A DNA stretch of 50,116 nucleotides from Sulfurovum sp. (GTDB lineage: Bacteria > Campylobacterota > Campylobacteria > Campylobacterales > Sulfurovaceae). Below, in pieces: positions 1 through 11,100 of this stretch; the stretch's first letter is position 1, and each line of letters starts with the position of its first letter. Below the pieces are notes generated by a model. It did no database searches, was not told where the DNA came from, and worked only from the letters and a program-made list of their open reading frames with translations. The DNA lies in contig JAAXPZ010000022.1 in assembly GCA_012329065.1 (NCBI GenBank), positions 1 to 50,116 on the forward strand. Direction: 5' to 3'. A program made the position numbers and the translations under genes.

Positions 1-1676
1 AATCTACTAGCACTCCTAGAGTCATTCAAATCATTCAGTTCGTATACAGAGATGCCTCCCTCGCTAAACCCTTTCATCTCTATACGCCGCTTATTATAAT
101 CCATCTGCTTGAACGCAACCCTGATACCGTTTGCCAGTAGATATTCATGATAATCAAATTTCTTATGGTACTGCTTTTTCATCATTTTTTTAGGTACTAA
201 GGTATTAAAAAGCAACTTGGTGGGTAGCTCTTTCTCTAGAGAAAAGTTTTCTATATTTTTCCTGGCCTCTTTGATAGTAGAGAGAATTTTTCGCTTTGCT
301 ACTTGATTGCCCGTGCTGTTAACAAAGATTATTGCCTTATCCTGTAACGCTACAATTTTTTTAAATTTATTGTTGATATCTGCTAGGGCTATCTCGTCTA
401 TAAACCTCTTGTGTAGACTATACAATACTTCATAATCAACATAAGTACTACCACTCAAGTACGCGTTTGCAAGTGCAGATGCGATTGTTGAGGATTTTTG
501 TGATTTTATGCGTTTATAGCGGCTTTCATTTGCAGAGCTTAATCTTTTTTTGATAAGAGCAAGATCGCCATCAGAGAAACCGTGTTTATCAAAGCTCCAA
601 ATGAGTGCATAAAGTTCATTGAGGGCTGCAAGCTCATCGAGGCCATTATAATGAGCGACAAACTTATATCCGCCTCTTGATTCACCAATCGCCATACCTC
701 TCATGTAGATCCTTTTGGCTTTTGTATTGGCTTTGAGTATCTGCTCACTTGCTTTCATGTTAAAAAGTGCCGTCATCATACTCTCTACAAGACTCTGTCT
801 CAGATCTTTTTCTGTTTTTAGCTTATCGAGATTTTCAATGAATGTTATGTCCAAAAAGTTGGAAGTTGTTTCAGGATCAGTCACTATGCGGATTCTAGTA
901 CTGTTGTTTTCGGGAATACTTCTTGAAGCAGGCTGTCGAGTACTTCTATTTGTGAGTTCTGAAAAATATTCTTTGATTAACGACTCGATTTTAGTTGTGT
1001 TAAAGTCGCCTACTGCCACAAAATGCATCAGATTTGGTCTATACCAGTCGTTATAAAAGTCTATTGCTCTTTGGACAGGTACATTTCGTACGATATCCAA
1101 ATCTCCGATTGGCTCTCGTTCTAGATATTTTGAGTTGGCATACTTCATATCTTTTGTCTTGCGAAACAGTCTATAATTGACTGTATCTCTGCTTCTTGCC
1201 TCTTCGAGTATGACTCCTCTTTCTGCCTCAAAAGCCTCTTTGTCAAACACAAGACCATCTGCCCAATCTTTAAATATAAGGAAACTTTTCTCTAAATTAT
1301 TATTTCTTACGGGTACAGAAAGTTGATAAAGCGTTCTCTCGTATGAAGTACTTGCATTCAGATGTGATCCGAAGCTTACACCTATGGATTCCAAATATTG
1401 AATCAACTCATTTTTTTTGAAATTTTTTGAACCATTAAATGCCATATGCTCAACAAAATGTGCCAAACCCTTTTGGTCATCATCCTCCTCAAGTGATCCT
1501 GCTTTGACAACTAAACGGAACTCAGCTATCTCCTTTGGTTTGCTATTCTGCTTGATTTCATAAGTGAAACCATTCTCAAGCTTTCCTGTGATAACCGAAG
1601 GCTCTTTGGGTAATTCTTTTGCAGACAATAGAGTTGCAACACTAATGGCGAACAACAGACAAATCAATTTTTTCAT
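1..1676 (-). CDS. M16 family zinc metallopeptidase, partial at the left window edge
   Basis: This is the N-terminal 558 or so residues of a secreted or periplasmic insulinase/pitrilysin-type peptidase; the C-terminus lies outside the window. Residues 1-20 form a signal peptide. The inverted zinc motif HFVEH is at residues 73-77, and the expected distal glutamate lies in the stretch ERGVILEE at about residues 152-159. In this family the two histidines and the distal glutamate bind zinc and the glutamate within HFVEH is the catalytic base. The rest is consistent with repeated M16 domains. The start ATG is preceded by AAGGA at good spacing and overlaps the TAA of the decayed upstream ORF by one base (TAATG), so the two were once translationally coupled. 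Its substrate is unknown. Confidence 0.9.
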   Translation of the reverse strand, partial: MKKLICLLFAISVATLLSAKELPKEPSVITGKLENGFTYEIKQNSKPKEIAEFRLVVKAGSLEEDDDQKGLAHFVEHMAFNGSKNFKKNELIQYLESIGVSFGSHLNASTSYERTLYQLSVPVRNNNLEKSFLIFKDWADGLVFDKEAFEAERGVILEEARSRDTVNYRLFRKTKDMKYANSKYLEREPIGDLDIVRNVPVQRAIDFYNDWYRPNLMHFVAVGDFNTTKIESLIKEYFSELTNRSTRQPASRSIPENNSTRIRIVTDPETTSNFLDITFIENLDKLKTEKDLRQSLVESMMTALFNMKASEQILKANTKAKRIYMRGMAIGESRGGYKFVAHYNGLDELAALNELYALIWSFDKHGFSDGDLALIKKRLSSANESRYKRIKSQKSSTIASALANAYLSGSTYVDYEVLYSLHKRFIDEIALADINNKFKKIVALQDKAIIFVNSTGNQVAKRKILSTIKEARKNIENFSLEKELPTKLLFNTLVPKKMMKKQYHKKFDYHEYLLANGIRVAFKQMDYNKRRIEMKGFSEGGISVYELNDLNDSRSASR

Positions 1677-2563: not shown

Positions 2564-2842
2564 ATGGTTCATCATGGAGAACATGGCAAAAAACGCCATG
2601 GTAAAGGTCAAAAGCATAAAAGGCTAGATATGATTGAAGAGGGAGGGAAAGTAAAGATTTTAAACATATATACCTCTGGGAAGCTTATGCAAAAGCTTCT
2701 TGATATGGGCTTTATCATCGGATCAGAAATTATTGTTGTCAGAGAGGCTCCTCTGCGTGATCCCATGGAGCTAAAGATACATAATTACAATATCTCTCTA
2801 AGAAAAAGTGAAGCTGCACTTATAGAGGTGGAAGAAGTATGA
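2564..2842 (+). CDS. feoA: Ferrous iron transport protein A
   Basis: A 92-residue FeoA: a small SH3-like cytoplasmic protein that works with FeoB in ferrous iron uptake. The recognisable part runs from about residue 26 (KVKILNI...KLLDMGFIIGSEIIVVREAPLRDPMELKIHNYNISLRKSEA) and shows the usual LxxMGFxxGxxI and P--DP-E----Y-ISLRK--A signatures. The first 22 residues are an extra His/Lys/Gly-rich tail with six histidines, which could bind metal; that is inference. The start ATG follows AAAGGA at good spacing. The gene overlaps feoB by four bases (ATGA), so the two are translationally coupled. Confidence 0.95.
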   Translation: MVHHGEHGKKRHGKGQKHKRLDMIEEGGKVKILNIYTSGKLMQKLLDMGFIIGSEIIVVREAPLRDPMELKIHNYNISLRKSEAALIEVEEV

Positions 2843-5316
2843 GTGATATCAAGGTAGCACTATCAGGTCAGCCAAACTGTGGTAAATCCACCATTTTTAA
2901 CATGGTCAGTGGTATAGACCAGCACATCGCCAACTACCCTGGCGTAACCGTAGATAAAAAAACTGGTCATTTCAAATATGCTGATCACAAAATAGAGATG
3001 GTGGACTTGCCTGGCACATACTCTTTTAGCTCATATTCACTGGAGGAGAGAGTAGCAAAAGAGTTTATCATCGATGAAAGTCCAGATGTAATAGTAGATG
3101 TTGTTGATGCTTCAAATATCAAAAGAAATCTCTACCTGACTTTTCAACTCCTCGAAATTGGTATACCTGTAGTCGTGGTACTCAACATGATGGATGTAGC
3201 AGAACGAAGAGGCATAGATATAGACAGTGCCAAGATCTCTGAAATGTTAGGCTGTAAGGTGATAGAGGCAAGTGGTGCCAAGGGCATAGGTGGTGAAGAG
3301 ATCATGAAGGCTATAGTGGATACTGCAAAAGCTAAAAAGAATTATGAGGATTTCAAAATTCACTATGAAGAGCTTGAACCACATATCAAAGCTATCGAAG
3401 ACAAAATATCAGACACATCTTTGTCACTAAACAAGAGATGGATGGCAATCAAAGTATTGGAGGGTGATGTAACTATATTGTCTCATCTAGAAAAAGAATT
3501 TCCCGATATCAAAGATGCGGCTGATCATGAGATAAATAAATTTCATTCCCTGTACGACAAAGATACAGTCGCTTTTTTGGCGACCTTTAGATATGACTCT
3601 GCTGATATAATATACCACAAAGCCATAGTTGAGAAAAATGCAGGCAAGGAAACACTTACAGACAAGGCAGACAAGATTGTACTAAACAGATGGCTGGCAC
3701 TACCTATATTGTTCGCCATCATGTTCTTAGTGTATCAGCTTTCCATAGTGGGTGGCTACAAGCTTACTGATTACACTTGGCCACTTCTTGCAGCTGTCAA
3801 AAACTTCGTATTGGACATCTCTCCTGCCCCTTACCTGACCGATGTACCCATGATAACCGACTTCGCCTTGTGGATGATCAACAGTGCAAATGCCCTGATG
3901 AACTATATACCTATATTCTTCATACTCTTTGCACTCATAGCTATCATGGAAGATATAGGGTATATGCCTAGAATGGCATTTATTCTAGATAGACTCTTTA
4001 GAAAGTTCGGCTTGCATGGTCAATCAACACTGCCTCTGGTTTTGGGTGGGGCTTTTGTGGGTGGCTGTGCAGTTCCAGGAGTGATGGCTACCAAAGGTAT
4101 AGCAGATGATAGGGCCAGAATGGCGACCATACTGACAGTTCCATATATGAATTGCTTGGCAAAAGTACCGTTCTATACACTTCTTTTGGGTGCATTTTTT
4201 GTCTCCAGCATGTCTCTGATGATGCTATACATCTCTACTGTCACTATCTTTACTGCGCTTATAGCATCCAAGATACTCACAAGTACTTTTCTAAATACAA
4301 GAGAGACAGCGCCTTTCTTGATGGAGCTTCCGCCGTACCATGCACCAACCTTCAAAGGTGTGATCTTAAGTGCTACTCAAAGAGTATGGGTCTATATATA
4401 CAAAGTGCTAACGATTGTATTGGCAGTTGCTGTTGTTTTGTTTGCTATGCTACAGTTTCCAGGTATCAATAAAGATACCAAGATACAGTATGATAAAGAA
4501 TTAGAAAAAGCTCTAGTAGTATTTGATAAAAAAGTCAAAAAAAGCAAATATCATGGGCAGGTAGATACCAAAGATGAAATAGCCGACTTATTGAACTACT
4601 ATGATAGCTATAGAGCAAAAAGAATGGCGACCACCTCTAAAGGAGGTGCTGCATCTATAGATGAAAAATATAAAACCAAAAATGCAGACTTTTTTAACTT
4701 TATCAAACCAAGAAAAGACAAAGAGGCCAAAAAAGTAAATAGGGCTCTTAGAAAACTTGCGAAATCAAGAAACAGAATATTGCGAAATATGAAAAATGAA
4801 AAAGTAGAAAATTCTCTTTTGGGAATGGCGGGTAAATCGGTTGAGCCGTTGACTAAATATGCTGGGTTTGATTGGAAAATCAATGTAGCATTCCTGAGCT
4901 CATTTGCAGCCAGAGAGAGTGCGGTGGCAACACTGGGATCTCTCTATGAGAACAATCAAGCAGACTCCCAAAGAGCTGAAGAAGCGATGGCACAAAACAG
5001 TGGATACACTCCTCTTCATGCTGTAGCGATCATCATCTTTATGCTCCTTACTCCTCCTTGTATAGCTACTATGATAGTAGTAAAAATGCAAACAAATAGC
5101 TATAGATGGATGTTTTTTGCTATATTTTTCCCTGTATTTTTGGGTGTAGCGATATCTTCGCTCGTATTTATTCTTGGAAGTAAATATGACTGGGGTGGAG
5201 TAGAGGCGATGTCATATTTTTATTTTTCTGTGGTTGCTATAGCACTAGCTCTAGGGTTTTATCCCTCCAAAAAGAAAAACTGGACAGGAGGCTTAAGGGC
5301 AGATATCAATAAATAG
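2839..5316 (+). CDS. feoB: Ferrous iron transporter FeoB, GTPase-permease
   Basis: FeoB moves Fe(II) across the inner membrane and couples this to an N-terminal G-protein domain. The G1 loop GQPNCGKS is at residues 10-17, the G2 threonine at about 37 (YPGVTVDK), G3 DLPG at 56-59 and G4 NMMD near 115, followed by a helical spacer. From about residue 285 a polytopic membrane part carries the two Gate modules (GGAFVGGCAVPGVMATKG and FAARESAVATLGS). At 825 residues it is longer than E. coli FeoB (773). The extra length is a highly charged Lys-rich segment at about residues 544-660, between membrane segments. It follows feoA with a four-base overlap. About 75 bases after its stop a new promoter drives the accessory genes. 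Confidence 0.96.
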   Translation: MSDIKVALSGQPNCGKSTIFNMVSGIDQHIANYPGVTVDKKTGHFKYADHKIEMVDLPGTYSFSSYSLEERVAKEFIIDESPDVIVDVVDASNIKRNLYLTFQLLEIGIPVVVVLNMMDVAERRGIDIDSAKISEMLGCKVIEASGAKGIGGEEIMKAIVDTAKAKKNYEDFKIHYEELEPHIKAIEDKISDTSLSLNKRWMAIKVLEGDVTILSHLEKEFPDIKDAADHEINKFHSLYDKDTVAFLATFRYDSADIIYHKAIVEKNAGKETLTDKADKIVLNRWLALPILFAIMFLVYQLSIVGGYKLTDYTWPLLAAVKNFVLDISPAPYLTDVPMITDFALWMINSANALMNYIPIFFILFALIAIMEDIGYMPRMAFILDRLFRKFGLHGQSTLPLVLGGAFVGGCAVPGVMATKGIADDRARMATILTVPYMNCLAKVPFYTLLLGAFFVSSMSLMMLYISTVTIFTALIASKILTSTFLNTRETAPFLMELPPYHAPTFKGVILSATQRVWVYIYKVLTIVLAVAVVLFAMLQFPGINKDTKIQYDKELEKALVVFDKKVKKSKYHGQVDTKDEIADLLNYYDSYRAKRMATTSKGGAASIDEKYKTKNADFFNFIKPRKDKEAKKVNRALRKLAKSRNRILRNMKNEKVENSLLGMAGKSVEPLTKYAGFDWKINVAFLSSFAARESAVATLGSLYENNQADSQRAEEAMAQNSGYTPLHAVAIIIFMLLTPPCIATMIVVKMQTNSYRWMFFAIFFPVFLGVAISSLVFILGSKYDWGGVEAMSYFYFSVVAIALALGFYPSKKKNWTGGLRADINK

Positions 5317-5344: not shown

Positions 5345-5367
5345 TTGATAATCAATTATGGTATAAT
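5345..5367 (+). promoter_or_regulatory. Promoter with overlapping Fur-like dyad, for the accessory metal genes
   Basis: A TATAAT hexamer at 5362-5367 forms a good -10 element. Immediately upstream, 5345-5355 is a perfect short palindrome TTGATAATCAA set in a GATAATCAATTAT context that resembles half of a Fur box. The site would cover the spacer/-35 region, which suits repression. Transcription would start near 5374, giving a leader of about 75 bases that contains the dyad at 5391-5420. Fur binding is inferred. Confidence 0.5.
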
Positions 5368-5390
5368 ACCAAATTCGGTTTAGTTAGGTT

Positions 5391-5420
5391 TATTTGTATA
5401 AATTGAAAATTATACAAATA
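5391..5420 (+). repeat. Perfect 11-bp inverted repeat in the leader of the 5450 gene
   Basis: TATTTGTATAA (5391-5401) and TTATACAAATA (5410-5420) are exact reverse complements separated by eight bases. The dyad lies between the predicted transcription start and the Shine-Dalgarno AAAGGA of the next gene. It could be an operator for a dimeric regulator or an AU-rich hairpin in the leader. No T-run follows, so it is not a typical terminator. Confidence 0.7.
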
Positions 5421-5449
5421 TGGTTATTACTCTCAATAAAGGATTTAAG

Positions 5450-5752
5450 ATGTTAAAGAAAATTATATTTGCTAGTTTGCTTACAACTGCTTCACTTTTT
5501 GCACATTCGGCTATCATGAGTTGTTTTGACAATGGTGATGGAACTATCACTTGTGAAGGTGGATTTAGTGACGGAAGCAGTGCATCAGGTGTCAAGTTCA
5601 AAGTCATGCAAGACAAGAAGGTTGTTTTTTCTGCAAAAATGAGCGAGGATAGTGAAGTTACATTCAAGAAGCCAAAGGGTGATTATACTGCTGTTTTTGA
5701 TGCAGGAGAAGGTCATCAGGTTCTCGTAAGAGGTGCTGATATTACTGAATAG
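5450..5752 (+). CDS. Small secreted protein with His at the predicted mature N-terminus
   Basis: A 100-residue exported protein. The ATG at 5450 is chosen because AAAGGA precedes it at six bases and a normal signal peptide follows at once (MLKKIIFASLLTTASLFA); an upstream ATG in frame at 5420 would spoil that. Cleavage after Ala18 would leave His19 as the first residue. The mature part has two cysteines (about residues 24 and 34) and an acidic, beta-rich sequence ending YTAVFDAGEGHQVLVRG. This end resembles the small periplasmic accessory proteins of nickel/cobalt uptake systems (NikL/CbiL-like), but that is from memory and weak. It lies between feoB and the DUF4198-type gene, which suggests periplasmic metal handling. 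Confidence 0.75.
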   Translation: MLKKIIFASLLTTASLFAHSAIMSCFDNGDGTITCEGGFSDGSSASGVKFKVMQDKKVVFSAKMSEDSEVTFKKPKGDYTAVFDAGEGHQVLVRGADITE

Positions 5753-5823
5753 TATTACATGGTAATAGATTAAATATTAGATCGATACAGAATGAAGGCT
5801 ATTAAACATAAAAAGGAAGAATA

Positions 5824-6654
5824 ATGAATAAAACAGTTTTGACAACAGCTATAGCGGCAACAGTACTTACTACAGGAGCATTTGCACATTTTCAAATGCT
5901 CTACACTCCAAATACAGCACTGACAAAAGGTGGTACCGTAGAGCTTTTACATGCGTTTACTCACCCTTTTGCAGATGAACATACTATGGATATGGGCAAG
6001 CAGCATGACAGCAAAGAGTTCACAGCACCATTAGAGTTTTTCGTAATCAACAAAGAGAAGAAAACAGATCTCCTAAGCACCCTAAAAGATATCACATTCA
6101 AAGGATCTCACAATACTGCCCACGCTTACAGATCACAGTATAAAGCTAGAAGAATGGGTGACCATGTCTTAGTAATGGTGCCAGCACCTTATTATGAGAA
6201 AAACGAAGATGTTTATATCCAGCAGGTTACTAAAAGTATCATTAATGTAGCAGGTGCTCCTACTGATTGGGATGCACCTGCTGGTCTCAAGACAGAGATT
6301 GTGCCTCTGGTAAAACCATATGCCATCTGGGAAGGCAGTAACTTTACTGGAATAGTCATGAGTAACGGCAAGCCAGTACCATTTGCTGAGATAGAGGTAG
6401 AGTATCTAAACAGAGATGTAGACCTCAAAGCCAATGCTATGGGTAAATCAAGATATGAAGCCCCTCAGGACAGCTTTGTGACTATGGGCATGAAAGCCAA
6501 TAAAGATGGTGAGTTTACTTTCTCTATCCCAAAAGCTGGTTTCTGGGGATTTTGTGCACTAGGCTCTGGTCCCGACAAAGAGTATAAAGGCAAAGAACTA
6601 AGCCAAGATGCAGTTATCTGGGTAGAAGCCAAAGCAATGAAGCCTGCCAAATAG
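5824..6654 (+). CDS. DUF4198-type periplasmic metal-uptake accessory protein
   Basis: A 276-residue exported protein with a clear signal peptide and predicted cleavage at AFA-HF, so the mature chain begins with His22. The sequence matches the pattern of DUF4198 proteins, often named after the nickel transport NikM/NikK periplasmic part: an early AHFQML motif, a first beta domain rich in histidine (LLHAFTHPFADEHTMDMGKQHD), then an Ig-like C-terminal half with the segment VKPYAIWEGSNFTGIVMSNGKPVPFAEIEVEY and a GEFTFSIPKAGFWGF motif. In known family members an N-terminal histidine takes part in metal binding. The start follows AAAAAGGA. Neighbours (feoAB upstream, Cys-rich peptide and ABC genes downstream) point to iron or another divalent metal. 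Confidence 0.8.
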   Translation: MNKTVLTTAIAATVLTTGAFAHFQMLYTPNTALTKGGTVELLHAFTHPFADEHTMDMGKQHDSKEFTAPLEFFVINKEKKTDLLSTLKDITFKGSHNTAHAYRSQYKARRMGDHVLVMVPAPYYEKNEDVYIQQVTKSIINVAGAPTDWDAPAGLKTEIVPLVKPYAIWEGSNFTGIVMSNGKPVPFAEIEVEYLNRDVDLKANAMGKSRYEAPQDSFVTMGMKANKDGEFTFSIPKAGFWGFCALGSGPDKEYKGKELSQDAVIWVEAKAMKPAK

Positions 6655-6659
6655 AATTT

Positions 6660-6718
6660 GTAGGTTTTTAGAGAGTCGTATAGGCATGCGGCTTTCTATA
6701 AAGCTTACAATTACCTAC
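6660..6718 (+). repeat. Intercistronic stem-loop
   Basis: An outer stem GTAGGT (6660-6665) / ACCTAC (6713-6718) encloses an inner stem AGAGAGTCG (6670-6678) / CGGCTTTCT (6689-6697) that pairs with two wobble pairs. It fills the gap between the DUF4198-type gene and the Cys-rich peptide gene. With no U-run after it, it more likely stabilises or processes the upstream mRNA than ends transcription. Confidence 0.55.
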
Positions 6719-6731
6719 AAAAGGACTTAAG

Positions 6732-6842
6732 ATGGAAACTGCTTTTTTGATAGTAGTAACTTTGGGTGCACTATATTTTTTATATGTCAAACTTGTCAAA
6801 AACAGAGGATGTGACGGAGACTGCAACTGTGGCAAGAAATAA
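6732..6842 (+). CDS. FeoB-associated Cys-rich membrane peptide
   Basis: A 36-residue peptide beginning METAFLIVVTLGALYFLYVK and ending with a basic, Cys-rich tail (Cys27, Cys31, Cys33). A single N-terminal membrane segment followed by a CxxxCxC cluster is the layout of the FeoB-associated Cys-rich membrane protein family, normally encoded directly after feoB. Here it sits about 1.4 kb downstream of feoB, after the two secreted proteins. AAAGGA precedes the ATG at a suitable distance. Its role in the family is not well defined; a membrane-anchored Fe(II) or redox function near the Feo complex is inferred. Its end overlaps the likely GTG start of the ABC ATPase by 14 bases. Confidence 0.82.
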   Translation: METAFLIVVTLGALYFLYVKLVKNRGCDGDCNCGKK

Positions 6843-7548
6843 AGTAATAGAAATAAAAGGCCTGTCCCATAGCTATGGGACAAAAACTATCTATGAAAAT
6901 CTAAATATTGATATTTACGAAGGTAGCGTTTTTGGTCTTTTGGGCAAAAATGGTGTTGGAAAATCAACACTTATTAATATACTTATGGGCTACCTCAAGC
7001 CAAATGCGGGAGAATGCCTCATACTTGGTGAGACATCACATGATCTATCAGCAGGAACAAAAGAAAAAATTGCACTACTACATGAAGGCTTCGTCACATA
7101 TGACTTTATGACTATTGAAGAGATAGAAAAATTTTTTGCACCTTTTTACAAAAAATGGGAAAAAGAACTATTTTATAGCTTAGTTGACCTCATGAAACTT
7201 GACTATACGCAAAAGGTCAGCTCTCTATCATTTGGACAAAAATCTCAAGTAGTGCTAGGCTCTTTGTTTGCACAAGACGCAGATATATTAATGCTGGATG
7301 ACTACTCTATGGGTCTTGATGCTGGATACAGAAGACTGTTCATAAATTATCTAAAAGACTATATAAAAGGCACTTCTAAAACTATCTTGGTTACTTCTCA
7401 TGTCATGAGCGATTTGGAGCATCTGATAGATGACATGGTCATAGTCCAAAGAGGTGGCATTATACACGAAGACACGATGGAAAATTTCAATAATGACAAG
7501 TCGACAACATTTGAAGATAAATTTTTAGACCTAGTGGGAATGTACTAA
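6829..7548 (+). CDS. ABC transporter ATP-binding protein
   Basis: A 239-residue ABC ATPase. Counted from the GTG at 6829, Walker A (GKNGVGKS) is at residues 39-46, the signature is LSFGQK and Walker B is ILMLDDYSMGLD, with a switch His in VTSHVMSD. The residue after the Walker B aspartate is Asp, not the usual catalytic Glu, and the usual Pro-Thr/Ser is Tyr-Ser. The GTG is chosen because GGAG lies nine bases upstream and the domain then starts at a normal distance; in-frame alternatives are GTG 6766 and ATG 6784. The stop overlaps the permease ATG (TAATG), so the two form one transporter. The direction of transport and the substrate are not shown. Confidence 0.85.
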   Translation: MARNKVIEIKGLSHSYGTKTIYENLNIDIYEGSVFGLLGKNGVGKSTLINILMGYLKPNAGECLILGETSHDLSAGTKEKIALLHEGFVTYDFMTIEEIEKFFAPFYKKWEKELFYSLVDLMKLDYTQKVSSLSFGQKSQVVLGSLFAQDADILMLDDYSMGLDAGYRRLFINYLKDYIKGTSKTILVTSHVMSDLEHLIDDMVIVQRGGIIHEDTMENFNNDKSTTFEDKFLDLVGMY

Positions 7549-9158
7549 TGATAAACTCAATTATAAAAAAAGAGTGGTTGAAGATAAAACTATACTTCTT
7601 TGTAGCTATTATTTTGATCATTGGCAGCTTGGCACACTTTGTCTTCAATCTCAATTTTTCATTCTCTACTATTGAGCCTGAATCAATGATGTGGTATCAG
7701 TTTGCTCACATACAGGACAAGCCATACTTTTATCTCTCTTATCTTTTTCTAATAGTTGCCACAGTTGTATCCCTCTCTCAATTTTTGCCAGAAAAAATAC
7801 AAAATCGAATAAAGATTATGGCTCATCTGCCACTAAAAATGAGAAGCAGTTTATTTAGGCATCTTATTGTAGGCATAGGGTTTATAATGATAATTTGTTT
7901 GATTTTAGGCATGTCTATTATTCTTATTTTTGCCCAACACTACCCTAGTGCCATTGTAGAAATCGCAGTAAAAGATATGCTCTGGTATAGTTTTGCCTCT
8001 ATTGTCTTATACTTGGGTCTTAGTGCGGTCATTATCGAGAAAAATCCTGTTATGGCTATTTTTAAATTAATATTAGTTTTGCTATTTATCGCTTCTTTTG
8101 TCAAAGAAAGATTTTGGAGTGCAGATATAGTTTGGATAATTTTTTTAGTCTATATGCCATTTCTCGCTCTTGATAGTTTTTATAGCATAAAGCAACAAAG
8201 GCTAAACTCTATTTACTATAAAATAGGTACTCTAGCTACTGTTGCTGTCTTGTTTTATGGTGGCTATAAAAACTATACAGAAAACTACCAAAAAGAGTTT
8301 GAAAGATACTATATATTCTACTCAAATGTAGCAAAAGATTTTGTCTATCAGAAAAACTTTGGTGACCATCAATTTGAGCATGGCATACAAGGCAAAGGTA
8401 CATTTGACAGACTCAAGTACGAATCTTATCTTCCCTTTGTATATTGGCGAAACCTTGATATACAGAAAAAACTACCAATTGTTGTAAATGGAAAAAAGTT
8501 CGACAAGGCTACTATAAAAAAATCCCGTCTTGGCTTTAGCTACAATCCTAAGCATTTACAAAAACTTGAAGTTGAATTCTATCCTTTACTAAATCCACAT
8601 AGCGATATAGGCATGATAAAGTTTCCTGAAGAGATGTTTGAGATTGCAGCATCTGGAGCAGCTATATATGACTATGACAACGGCTTATCGATAAAACTAA
8701 CAGATGAGATGAATCAACAACTAACAAGTAGTGACTTTGTTTTCCCAGCTACACATATTTGGGGTAAGCCTACAAATATGAAGCCATACGACAAAGGATA
8801 TCTCGTACTTGACAGCAACAAAGCACTCTTCAACATCAAAAGAAAAGATGATAAAATATATGTCACAAAAGTGCATTACCCAGAAGGCATAGATCTTGCA
8901 TATATTAAAATATCCGAAAATAAGCAAAAAGAGCTCAGCGGTTATGCTATAGATACGAATAGTAACTTCTATTTCTTGTCCTGGGATTTTGTATTTGAAA
9001 AGATAAAACTACCAAAGTTTGACTATAGAATAATGAAACTAAAGCTTATCTCTAACCCTCTTAACTATGTCATCAGGTATGATGATGGACAAACCTATTA
9101 CGCCGTGTACATCCCTAGAGATGGTGGCAAACATAAGCATGTAAAGTTTGTATATTGA
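7548..9158 (+). CDS. ABC transporter permease with large C-terminal extracytoplasmic domain (DUF4857-like)
   Basis: A 536-residue protein. The first 240 or so residues contain about six hydrophobic segments in an ABC-2-like layout (after MINSIIKKEWLKIKLYFF). Residues from about 245 to the end are soluble and beta-rich, with repeats of short aromatic strands (YLPFVYWRNLDIQKKLPIVVNGKKFDKATIKKSR; SNFYFLSWDFVFEKIKLPKFD) that suggest a propeller-like domain outside the membrane. This layout resembles DUF4857 proteins that pair with an ABC ATPase, but I have only memory of the family to support it. The C-terminus ends in a His/Lys-rich stretch (GGKHKHVKFVY). It is the last gene of the accessory metal locus and converges with the TRAP operon. 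Confidence 0.75.
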   Translation: MINSIIKKEWLKIKLYFFVAIILIIGSLAHFVFNLNFSFSTIEPESMMWYQFAHIQDKPYFYLSYLFLIVATVVSLSQFLPEKIQNRIKIMAHLPLKMRSSLFRHLIVGIGFIMIICLILGMSIILIFAQHYPSAIVEIAVKDMLWYSFASIVLYLGLSAVIIEKNPVMAIFKLILVLLFIASFVKERFWSADIVWIIFLVYMPFLALDSFYSIKQQRLNSIYYKIGTLATVAVLFYGGYKNYTENYQKEFERYYIFYSNVAKDFVYQKNFGDHQFEHGIQGKGTFDRLKYESYLPFVYWRNLDIQKKLPIVVNGKKFDKATIKKSRLGFSYNPKHLQKLEVEFYPLLNPHSDIGMIKFPEEMFEIAASGAAIYDYDNGLSIKLTDEMNQQLTSSDFVFPATHIWGKPTNMKPYDKGYLVLDSNKALFNIKRKDDKIYVTKVHYPEGIDLAYIKISENKQKELSGYAIDTNSNFYFLSWDFVFEKIKLPKFDYRIMKLKLISNPLNYVIRYDDGQTYYAVYIPRDGGKHKHVKFVY

Positions 9159-9207: not shown

Positions 9208-11100
9208 TCAACTAAATCTTTTTTTCATATAACTATACCAATGAAAACTCAACAGATAGGCATACGAGTATGTTCCAATAGCAATCAAAACAAATGTCAA
9301 TATGATCTCTGTAACGGAATACCATTCATAGCTGCTTGTTTCTGGAATGTATTTGTACATCAGGAATGCTGGAACATAAGCAAATAAAAATGGTCCAAGG
9401 TATAGGAATTTGGCAAATTTAAATGCCGTAAACGCTGTCTTCCACATATTGGCTCTTGCAATTGTTGCACCCACAAAAGCCGCTATACAAACTGGCGGTG
9501 TGATATTGGAGTCTTGGCTTAGCCAATAGATAATAAAATGTGCTGCTATAGGAGAAACACCTAGCTCTACCAAAGCAGGAACTGCTATGACAGCAATAAT
9601 CAAATAAGCAGCAGTTACAGGAACACCCATGCCTAACACTAGTGATGCCAACGCAATGAACAAAATAGTTAACCATAGCTGACCATCTGCAAGCTGTATC
9701 ACAATAGAACTAAAGGAGAATGTCAATCCACTAAATGTGAGCATAGATATTATAATACCTATAACTCCAACTGTTGCTCCTACAAGTAGGCTACTCAACA
9801 CGCCAGTTCTGGTTGCCTCCATAATAAGATTAAAATCTATTCTTGATTCTTTTCTAGCAACAGCTGCTCCCAATGCAACACCAAAACTTATAGATGCTAC
9901 ATAAAAGTTAGAGATATCTAGTGCGGTATAGGCATCTACTGCAAGTAAAAGCATCATAAGTACCATATGCATCAACGAATAAAGTCCGCCTATTGTCCAA
10001 CCTATAAGAATGCATGAAACAATACCAGCAACAGCGGCATAAGCAGGAGAGTATCCTGCTATCATCAATATAGTAATAATCACAAGTGGGACAAAATAAA
10101 ACCATCCTTCATTAAAAATCTTCTTTGCGTCATCTTTTGATCTTTCACCTCTTATTCCCTCTTTTTTTGCTTCATAATGAACCATAACAAATACACTGAA
10201 AAAATACATAAGTGCAGGAAATATAGCAATAAGCATAATAATATTATAAGAAATGCCAGTCAACTCTGCCATTATAAAACCACCAGCACCCATAATCGGA
10301 GGCATGAACATCCCACCAATGGATGCTGCTGGCTCTACTGCTCCTGCTACATGCGGCTTAAAGCCAGCCTTTTTCATAAGGGGTATTGTAAAAGCTCCCG
10401 TAGATGCAGTGTTGGCAATAGCGGAGCCTGATATGGATCCAAACACAGCACTTGCAACAACCGCTACCTTGGCAGGACCGCCAGTTTTGTGCCCTACTAG
10501 TGCCAAAGGTAAATCTATAAAAAACTTCTGTGCACCAGACTTCTCTAGAAATGCTCCAAAAAGAACAAAGAGCAAAACATAAGTTGCCAACACATTTGCC
10601 ATAATGCCAAATACGCCATCATTCGTTAAGAAAATTGTTGTAGATATTGTATCTAAAAGCCCTCCTCCACTATGAGCAAATAGTCCTGGTATATGCTCAC
10701 CATAAACACCATAAAGCATCATAGATACGCCTATTATCACAAAGACATTTCCTATAACTCTCCTAGCAACTTCTATTCCAAGCACAACACCGATAAAAGA
10801 GACCCATTGATCCATTGTTGTCTCTATGCCAGCCCTATGGTTGATGTCAACAAAGTAAACCATATAATATAGAACTGGGATTGCAGCAGCTGCTAGAAGA
10901 ATATAATCTAATACTCTTAAATATCTATTTGTTGATTTATAGACCATAAATACCAATATGTAAGTAATCAATACATATACACTTCTATGGTATTGGGTTG
11001 CGACTGGTTCTACGAGAGCGGCATATGAGTAAAATAGAAGTAGCGTTAACGCCAAAAGATCAAAAAAAAACCTCTCGACTCTATTTAATTTTTGAAACAT
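9208..11100 (-). CDS. TRAP transporter fused permease (DctQM type), TAXI system
   Basis: A 630-residue polytopic protein in which the small (4-helix) and large (12-helix) TRAP permease subunits are fused. The N-terminal part (about residues 1-120) matches the small subunit. The rest has the DctM pattern, for example the GSISGSAIANTASTGAFTIPLMKKAG segment and LVLGMGVPVTAAYLI. Such fused permeases usually pair with TAXI-family solute-binding proteins, and one lies directly upstream in the same operon. It would use the sodium or proton gradient to import an organic anion; the substrate cannot be told from sequence. The start ATG follows AAGGA. A 10-bp hairpin lies in the 81-base gap to the binding-protein gene. 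Confidence 0.92.
   Translation of the reverse strand: MFQKLNRVERFFFDLLALTLLLFYSYAALVEPVATQYHRSVYVLITYILVFMVYKSTNRYLRVLDYILLAAAAIPVLYYMVYFVDINHRAGIETTMDQWVSFIGVVLGIEVARRVIGNVFVIIGVSMMLYGVYGEHIPGLFAHSGGGLLDTISTTIFLTNDGVFGIMANVLATYVLLFVLFGAFLEKSGAQKFFIDLPLALVGHKTGGPAKVAVVASAVFGSISGSAIANTASTGAFTIPLMKKAGFKPHVAGAVEPAASIGGMFMPPIMGAGGFIMAELTGISYNIIMLIAIFPALMYFFSVFVMVHYEAKKEGIRGERSKDDAKKIFNEGWFYFVPLVIITILMIAGYSPAYAAVAGIVSCILIGWTIGGLYSLMHMVLMMLLLAVDAYTALDISNFYVASISFGVALGAAVARKESRIDFNLIMEATRTGVLSSLLVGATVGVIGIIISMLTFSGLTFSFSSIVIQLADGQLWLTILFIALASLVLGMGVPVTAAYLIIAVIAVPALVELGVSPIAAHFIIYWLSQDSNITPPVCIAAFVGATIARANMWKTAFTAFKFAKFLYLGPFLFAYVPAFLMYKYIPETSSYEWYSVTEIILTFVLIAIGTYSYAYLLSFHWYSYMKKRFS

Follow-up and report, generated by a model that had tools for sequence, protein, structure and literature searches.

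Several of the components that can accompany an iron permease are already known singly. FeoB-associated Cys-rich peptides have been described mainly for Firmicutes and Bacteroidetes (PMC8749426), and proteins with a DUF4198 domain are known in iron settings (PMC11870441). ATP-binding cassette (ABC) helpers of iron permeases are represented by the Fet system of Campylobacter jejuni: good growth in low iron depends there on each of FetB, FetC and FetD, which form an ABC transporter with no assigned substrate, even though the iron permease is proposed to be FetM (PMC10783030). For NikK and NikL, a role as periplasmic parts of nickel transporters has been put forward, with nickel binding as a possibility, and orphan copies of both have been noted (PMC545781, PMC2667541), even in organisms without nickel use, where they could not be placed (PMC2667541). 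Here we analyse a locus of Sulfurovum sp. in which feoA and feoB are followed by genes for a NikL-like protein, a NikK-like DUF4198 protein, a Cys-rich peptide and an ABC ATPase and permease, the latter carrying a DUF4857 domain. The DNA studied is the entire contig JAAXPZ010000022.1 of assembly GCA_012329065.1 (contig 46 of its own genome; 50,116 nucleotides, hereafter the window), and the module reads on its + strand. These seven genes very likely belong to a single Feo-based iron-uptake operon. We found nothing in the open-access literature that describes NikL/NikK-like proteins as partners of FeoB, the FeoB clade to which the window protein belongs, or a DUF4857 ABC unit together with Feo; DUF4857 is mentioned there in one paper and DUF4198 in company with FeoB in one, and the term 'ABC transporter' is absent from the Feo literature in PMC8749426 and PMC10353542.

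The seven genes of the module are the following.

2564 to 2842, + strand: feoA, 92 residues with a His-rich N-terminal extension; PF04023, E 1.7e-20
2839 to 5316, + strand: feoB, 825 residues; TIGR00437, 482 bits (cut-off 315.65), with G and Gate domains (PF02421, PF07670 and PF07664)
5450 to 5752, + strand: P0001, exported NikL-like domain without membrane anchor, 100 residues; NCBIfam NikL, E 3.6e-11
5824 to 6654, + strand: P0002, exported NikK-like DUF4198 protein, 276 residues; PF10670, E 1e-56
6732 to 6842, + strand: Cys-rich peptide of the FeoB-associated kind with one transmembrane (TM) segment, 36 residues; PF12669, 18.3 bits
6829 to 7548, + strand: ABC ATPase (GTG start; alternative ATG at 6784); PF00005, E 2.6e-20, 73.9 bits
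7548 to 9158, + strand: ABC permease with a C-terminal DUF4857 ectodomain (domain 8313 to 9104); PF16149, E 8e-72, 242 bits

An earlier reading of this DNA (the original prediction) had placed two exported proteins, a Cys-rich peptide and a two-part ABC transporter in one row after feoAB. A check of the open reading frames (ORFs), together with Pfam and NCBIfam profile searches, bears this out: all five ORFs are present directly 3' of feoAB, at 5450-9158 on the + strand. The feoA and feoB genes share 4 overlapping bases. The ATPase gene probably starts at GTG 6829 rather than at ATG 6784, because two relatives (loci L065 and L038) have GTG at the homologous position; read from this start, it overlaps the final 14 bases of the Cys-peptide gene. 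The gene layout makes co-transcription of the module likely; rather than a separate accessory locus, the five genes seem to make up the downstream end of a single feo operon. On the opposite strand, genes resembling those of tripartite ATP-independent periplasmic (TRAP) transporters start at 9208. A His-rich stretch, MVHHGEHGKKRHGKGQKHKR, precedes the FeoA domain in the N terminus of FeoA (window 2564-2623).

Comparison with described systems shows a partial likeness to each. Feo loci with a PF12669 peptide share with the window feoA, feoB, a small Cys-rich one-TM peptide downstream and a Fur box; by contrast, the window adds the NikL-like and NikK-like exported proteins and the ABC unit, and its FeoB falls in a separate clade with an insert. 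The energy-coupling factor (ECF) nickel/cobalt transporters of the NikKMLQO type offer a NikK-type protein that resembles P0002 and a NikL whose extracytoplasmic half resembles P0001, but the window locus has no NikM, NikQ or NikO, its NikL-like protein is unanchored and the partner is FeoB. The NosDFY(L) machinery pairs a type V-like permease and an ATPase with an outer domain, an arrangement that the window unit may share, and NosY is among the best fold matches of the window permease, with weak scores; the outer domain of the window protein is, however, fused and looks propeller-like, whereas NosD is a beta-helix, and Pfam searches found no NosD or nitrous oxide reductase families among the locus proteins. 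NosDFY spends ATP to work on periplasmic copper delivery. The Fet system, from the same phylum, resembles the window locus in that a Fur-controlled ABC transporter aids an iron permease distinct from it (PMC10783030), but it comprises FetM, FetP/P19, two permease subunits and thioredoxins, while the window has the DUF4857 permease; neither FetM/FetP nor the thioredoxins FetE/FetF were found in the window module by ORF list or Pfam. The BT3625-BT3633 genes of Bacteroides thetaiotaomicron encode a DUF4857 protein, a permease and an ABC ATPase, and BT3625-BT3627, a relative with a split permease, is up 37-65-fold in low iron (PMC10434189). In that locus, as in the split loci of Campylobacterota described below, DUF4857 is a separate protein and the neighbours are a TonB receptor and PepSY, not Feo.

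The module is conserved well beyond close relatives, so that the lack of co-occurrence outside such relatives, which the original prediction had named as a ground for refuting it, does not apply. DUF4857 was found in 27 of 298 Campylobacterota genomes, and relatives of the window permease in 2-3 of 60 near genomes. The module genes stand together in the window and in 15 other fetched loci, among which L036 and L069 are very probably one locus from two collections. Two gene orders are seen: feoAB-NikL-NikK-Cys peptide-ABC in the window, L038, L040, L045, L066, L075 and L083 (the contig of L083 ends after the ATPase), and Cys peptide-ABC-feoAB-NikL-(NikK) in L035, L036, L037, L065, L067-L069, L071 and, in part, L070. 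The ABC unit of these loci is of a fused kind, with permease and DUF4857 in one protein, and is accompanied by feoAB, a NikL-like gene and usually the DUF4198 and Cys-peptide genes. Its hosts come from at least six families and include Arcobacteraceae, Sulfurospirillum, Halarcobacter, Aliarcobacter, Sulfurovum, Helicobacter sp. 16-1353 and a 'Deltaproteobacteria' metagenome-assembled genome, whose locus (L075) is the sole sampled case outside Campylobacterota and possibly mis-binned. The fused kind forms one clade in the ATPase tree (support 100/99), and four Campylobacter members that do not lie beside feo nest inside this clade, next to a Feo-linked member. Three of those Campylobacter genomes were checked (G126, G094 and G294), and each has feoA-feoB-NikL-DUF4198-Cys peptide elsewhere. 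A NikL-type Feo locus is present in 12 of 12 sampled genomes with fused DUF4857, against 26 of 296 overall (hypergeometric P 1.3e-14, uncorrected for relatedness). This co-retention argues for joint action of the NikL-type Feo and the fused ABC unit, and we consider a functional tie between them probable. One relative touches on how the two gene orders are connected: in L070 (Sulfurovum sp. E29_bin29), feoA and short feoB-like pieces (5907-6610) stand before the Cys peptide-ABC genes and a further feoA-feoB start stands after them, as if the two orders had arisen via tandem duplication and loss.

A second, split kind of unit, in which permease and DUF4857 are two proteins, occupies a separate branch of the ATPase tree. 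Its neighbours are TonB receptors, ExbB/ExbD/TonB, PepSY proteins or M16 peptidases. The setting of such loci (L041, L043, L044, L047-L057, L062 and L063) recalls the Fus systems for ferredoxin import, where a TonB receptor, an M16 protease and an ABC protein go together.

The control elements considered were these.

2457 to 2471, no strand assigned: Fur box TGGTAATGATTGTCA, 5' of feoA, 13/15 against the consensus TGATAATNATTATCA
5359 to 5367, + strand: extended -10 TGGTATAAT, a possible internal promoter (string match, weak evidence)

The 13/15 Fur box before feoA is matched by fewer than 1% of dinucleotide shuffles and is the probable control site for the whole operon. The original prediction had instead treated the five downstream genes as a separate accessory locus with its own promoter and a Fur-like site in the gap between feoB and P0001. 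The best Fur-like scores in this gap are 11/15 and 12/19, scores that dinucleotide shuffles attain in at least half of cases; the extended -10 is one of 6 such strings in the window, where 4.96 are expected; and the gap is short or absent in most relatives. Because score and -10 lie at chance level and the gap is not conserved in length or presence, we rejected a promoter and Fur site proper to the five genes and do not regard these as a separate unit; the relatives show a single seven-gene Feo module. What survives of the predicted module is its substance: the combination of FeoB with an ABC transporter and with metal-binding-like proteins of the periplasm is real and conserved. We extended the Fur scan to 26 loci, partly related, covering the region upstream of feoA or, where the second gene order applies, upstream of the Cys-peptide/ABC genes. 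In 12 of the 26 we found a box reached by fewer than 5% of shuffles, against about 1.3 expected. L036, L067 and L068 have 14/15 boxes directly upstream of the Cys-peptide/ABC genes, at a distance of 34-51 bases, so that in those loci the ABC unit itself is linked to iron control.

The FeoB of the window, the sole FeoB of its genome, belongs to a distinct subtype, a point that the original prediction had missed. It is 68-69% identical to the FeoBs of two relatives (G040 and G011) and 30-36% identical to those of other relatives, members of the same genus included. In a tree of 27 NikL-linked and seven ordinary FeoBs, the NikL-linked proteins form one group apart from the ordinary ones (support 100/100). 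With few exceptions they carry GGCAVPG and MNCLAKVPF in place of the GCxVPA and MSCGARLP, or near variants of these, found in ordinary FeoBs, and they contain an insert of about 80 residues. The origin of the operon in this genome may be read from a flanking marker outside the module.

3 to 1676, - strand: M16 peptidase gene; PF00675

One congener (G004) has an ordinary feoAB one gene away from its own M16 peptidase gene, and the M16 genes of congener and window share 61% identity. From this flank, common to the window and this one congener, we infer that the NikL-type operon replaced an ordinary feoAB in the same place; the operon looks horizontally acquired in this genome.

The two exported proteins have N termini that are signal-peptide-like, as judged by eye, and both point to nickel/cobalt uptake systems, as the original prediction had suggested for the small proteins. 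P0001 scores 43.4 bits against NCBIfam NikL, below the cut-off of 100, and covers profile positions 2-88 of 180; it aligns with the N-terminal, extracytoplasmic half of NikL proteins from Rhodobacterales plasmids, the membrane anchor being absent. P0002 matches DUF4198 at 192.8 bits (PF10670, cut-off 34) and is 44-49% identical to NikK-type DUF4198 proteins on Rhodobacterales plasmids. On the two plasmids inspected, the DUF4198 gene immediately precedes cbiM, a NikL gene and cbiQ, and a 199-residue protein from one such plasmid is a NikL above the cut-off. A conserved His follows the likely signal-peptide cleavage site in both window proteins (P0001, LFA before and HSAIMSC after the cut; P0002, AFA before and HFQML after it) and is a putative metal site; P0001 has in addition two invariant Cys residues and a GEGH motif. 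Searches by sequence for relatives of solved structure gave only chance-level matches for P0001 and P0002, and Foldseek with P0001 returned generic immunoglobulin-like folds only.

NikL-like proteins also occur in other settings. The same genome holds a second NikL-like/DUF4198 pair away from Feo (L078, contig C51, 29585-29875 onward), which stands between two CobN-like chelatase genes in the company of an 893-residue protein and a TonB receptor. Window 1-385 overlaps the start of contig C51 (L132, 1-385) over 385 bp at 96.9% in reverse orientation; because of this end overlap the two contigs probably adjoin, which would put the second pair about 30 kb away. Longer NikL-like proteins of about 160-200 residues (L035, 12907-13518; L067, 15678-16175; and others) adjoin a 525-residue membrane protein that is PepSY-like by eye, to which L067 adds a probable TonB receptor; apparently this is a further use of the NikL-like domain.

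The Cys-rich peptide, METAFLIVVTLGALYFLYVKLVKNRGCDGDCNCGKK, falls under the 27-bit cut-off of PF12669, while its single TM segment, its Cys-rich tail and its encoding close to feoB are those of FeoB-associated peptides. Homologues with a conserved Cys pattern occupy the same place in 13 further loci, and the peptide and ATPase genes overlap or abut in 14 of 14 loci compared. The ATPase is of the DrrA/PmtA/ABCA-like kind, nearest in NCBIfam to the exporter families PmtA, DrrA and GldA. In the permease, DUF4857 spans residues 256-519 (Pfam), and a structural model (mean predicted local distance difference test score, pLDDT, 85; 13 sequences) has seven helices to residue 246, against a core of six in the NosY/PmtC/KpsM type, followed by a beta domain of about 280 residues, the large outer domain that had been predicted for the transporter. 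Foldseek, which returned nothing below E 0.001, placed NosY, PmtC and KpsM among the best matches of the membrane part (probability 0.5-0.98, all E > 0.01) and WD/Ycf48-type propellers among those of the outer part, with weak scores. The kind of ATPase and these weakly scoring fold matches would fit a type V exporter or a mechanotransmission unit better than a classical importer. No relatives of the permease with solved structures were found by sequence, and the DUF4857 permease had no match among 72,556 plasmid records. Three loci (L038, L040 and L066) have a gene of about 380 codons, from the same cluster, between DUF4198 and the Cys peptide or ATPase; the copy in L040 carries a GGDEF domain.

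Taken together, we read the locus as a seven-gene, Fur-controlled operon for ferrous-iron uptake, with the ABC unit as a helper of FeoB on the periplasmic side, a specific mechanism to which we give a probability of roughly 45%. FeoB would move Fe2+ through the inner membrane with FeoA as its cytosolic partner; P0001 and P0002, with the N-terminal His predicted to be exposed after cleavage, would bind periplasmic Fe2+ and hand it on towards FeoB; and the Cys-rich one-TM peptide would act at the membrane, in the service of FeoB or the ABC unit. Iron would not be imported by the ATPase-permease pair itself. ATP would rather move the DUF4857 outer domain, whose targets may be FeoB or the NikL/NikK-like carriers, and would in this way power the periplasmic loading or release of iron, in a manner like that of NosDFY in copper delivery and in a role comparable to that of FetBCD. 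The sequence data themselves establish the gene set, its conservation, the co-occurrence, the separate FeoB clade and the Fur boxes, whereas we infer which metal is carried, how it is handed over in the periplasm and in which direction the unit acts. A bolder version, an energised Feo complex in which the DUF4857 ABC machine spends ATP on loading Fe2+ from NikK/NikL-derived carriers onto a dedicated FeoB subtype, as a second energy input besides the FeoB NTPase and with accessory subunits of ECF nickel/cobalt transporters taken over by Feo, is speculative and we hold it to be doubtful. Through this module, a FeoB clade marked by an insert and a pore motif of its own acquires conserved periplasmic partners, a small membrane peptide and an ATP-driven unit; should these partners act on FeoB, they would provide a direct experimental handle on the periplasmic hand-over of metal. 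It also offers a context for orphan NikK/NikL proteins (PMC2667541).

Several observations weigh against this mechanism. The permease has weak fold matches (best E 0.019; target TM-scores no higher than 0.47), among which PmtC, a subunit of a peptide exporter, fits as well as NosY. DUF4857 has no obvious conserved set of metal ligands, with one invariant His and no Cys. By the shuffle test, the four unlinked Campylobacter ABC loci and about half of the other loci scanned lack a significant Fur box. Finally, among the 27 NikL-type FeoB loci of the tree, 13 lack linked ABC genes, which makes the unit an optional addition to NikL-type Feo rather than an essential part of it.

The main alternative is that the ABC unit is a type V/ABC-2 exporter that secretes or recycles an iron-mobilising compound, such as a small chelator or peptide, and that Feo takes up the Fe2+ so freed. 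The nearest families of the ATPase and the resemblance of the permease model to PmtC and KpsM as well as to NosY agree with this, as does the company of the split relatives, whose TonB receptors, ExbB/ExbD/TonB and PepSY make up a setting for ferric-chelate uptake; a TonB receptor also lies beside the fused ABC unit in L042 and before feoA in L038 and L097. Most loci of the fused type, however, have no adjoining TonB receptor, and no recognisable genes for chelator or peptide biosynthesis, outer-membrane factor or adaptor recur in the module loci, and on balance we think the exporter rather unlikely. It is a good deal less likely that the operon serves nickel/cobalt or several divalent metals rather than mainly iron, a FeoB subtype with NikK/NikL partners having changed its metal. 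The kinship of P0001 and P0002 with NikL and NikK of ECF transporters would fit such a change, as would the departure of the FeoB clade from ordinary FeoB at conserved pore motifs and its insert, and feoB of Helicobacter is predicted to be under NikR as well as Fur (PMC10353542). Against this, Fur boxes precede the operon and its relatives, and loss of iron function in the sole FeoB of the genome would leave no Feo iron uptake.

If a genomic block was inherited from a shared ancestor and transferred horizontally as a whole, this could, in principle, account for most of the co-occurrence with no functional tie, since the operon looks horizontally acquired here and the P value takes no account of relatedness. 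Yet the gene set has been kept while its order was shuffled between lineages, the unlinked Campylobacter genomes checked keep both loci, and the Cys-peptide gene stays in contact with the ATPase gene in every locus compared; we regard this explanation as improbable. The least probable reading, in which the unit works on its own as an inner-membrane importer of iron, heme or some other metal complex and is merely co-regulated with Feo through the operon and Fur boxes they have in common, fits poorly with the permease fold and the ATPase, which look like those of exporter/type V units, with the lack of an importer-class substrate-binding protein in the module, and with the 12 of 12 co-retention with NikL-type Feo, which argues for joint action.

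A further metal cluster often lies beside the NikL-type Feo or ABC genes (L045, L066-L068, L072, L073, L076, L081, L085 and L086). A ferrosome reading of this cluster was considered and is not claimed, FezC having been described as a cytochrome (PMC10979944). The cluster encodes a FUR-family regulator, an HMA_2 protein, a weakly rubrerythrin-like protein, small proteins and one or two heavy-metal P-type ATPases, and possibly serves iron storage or efflux.

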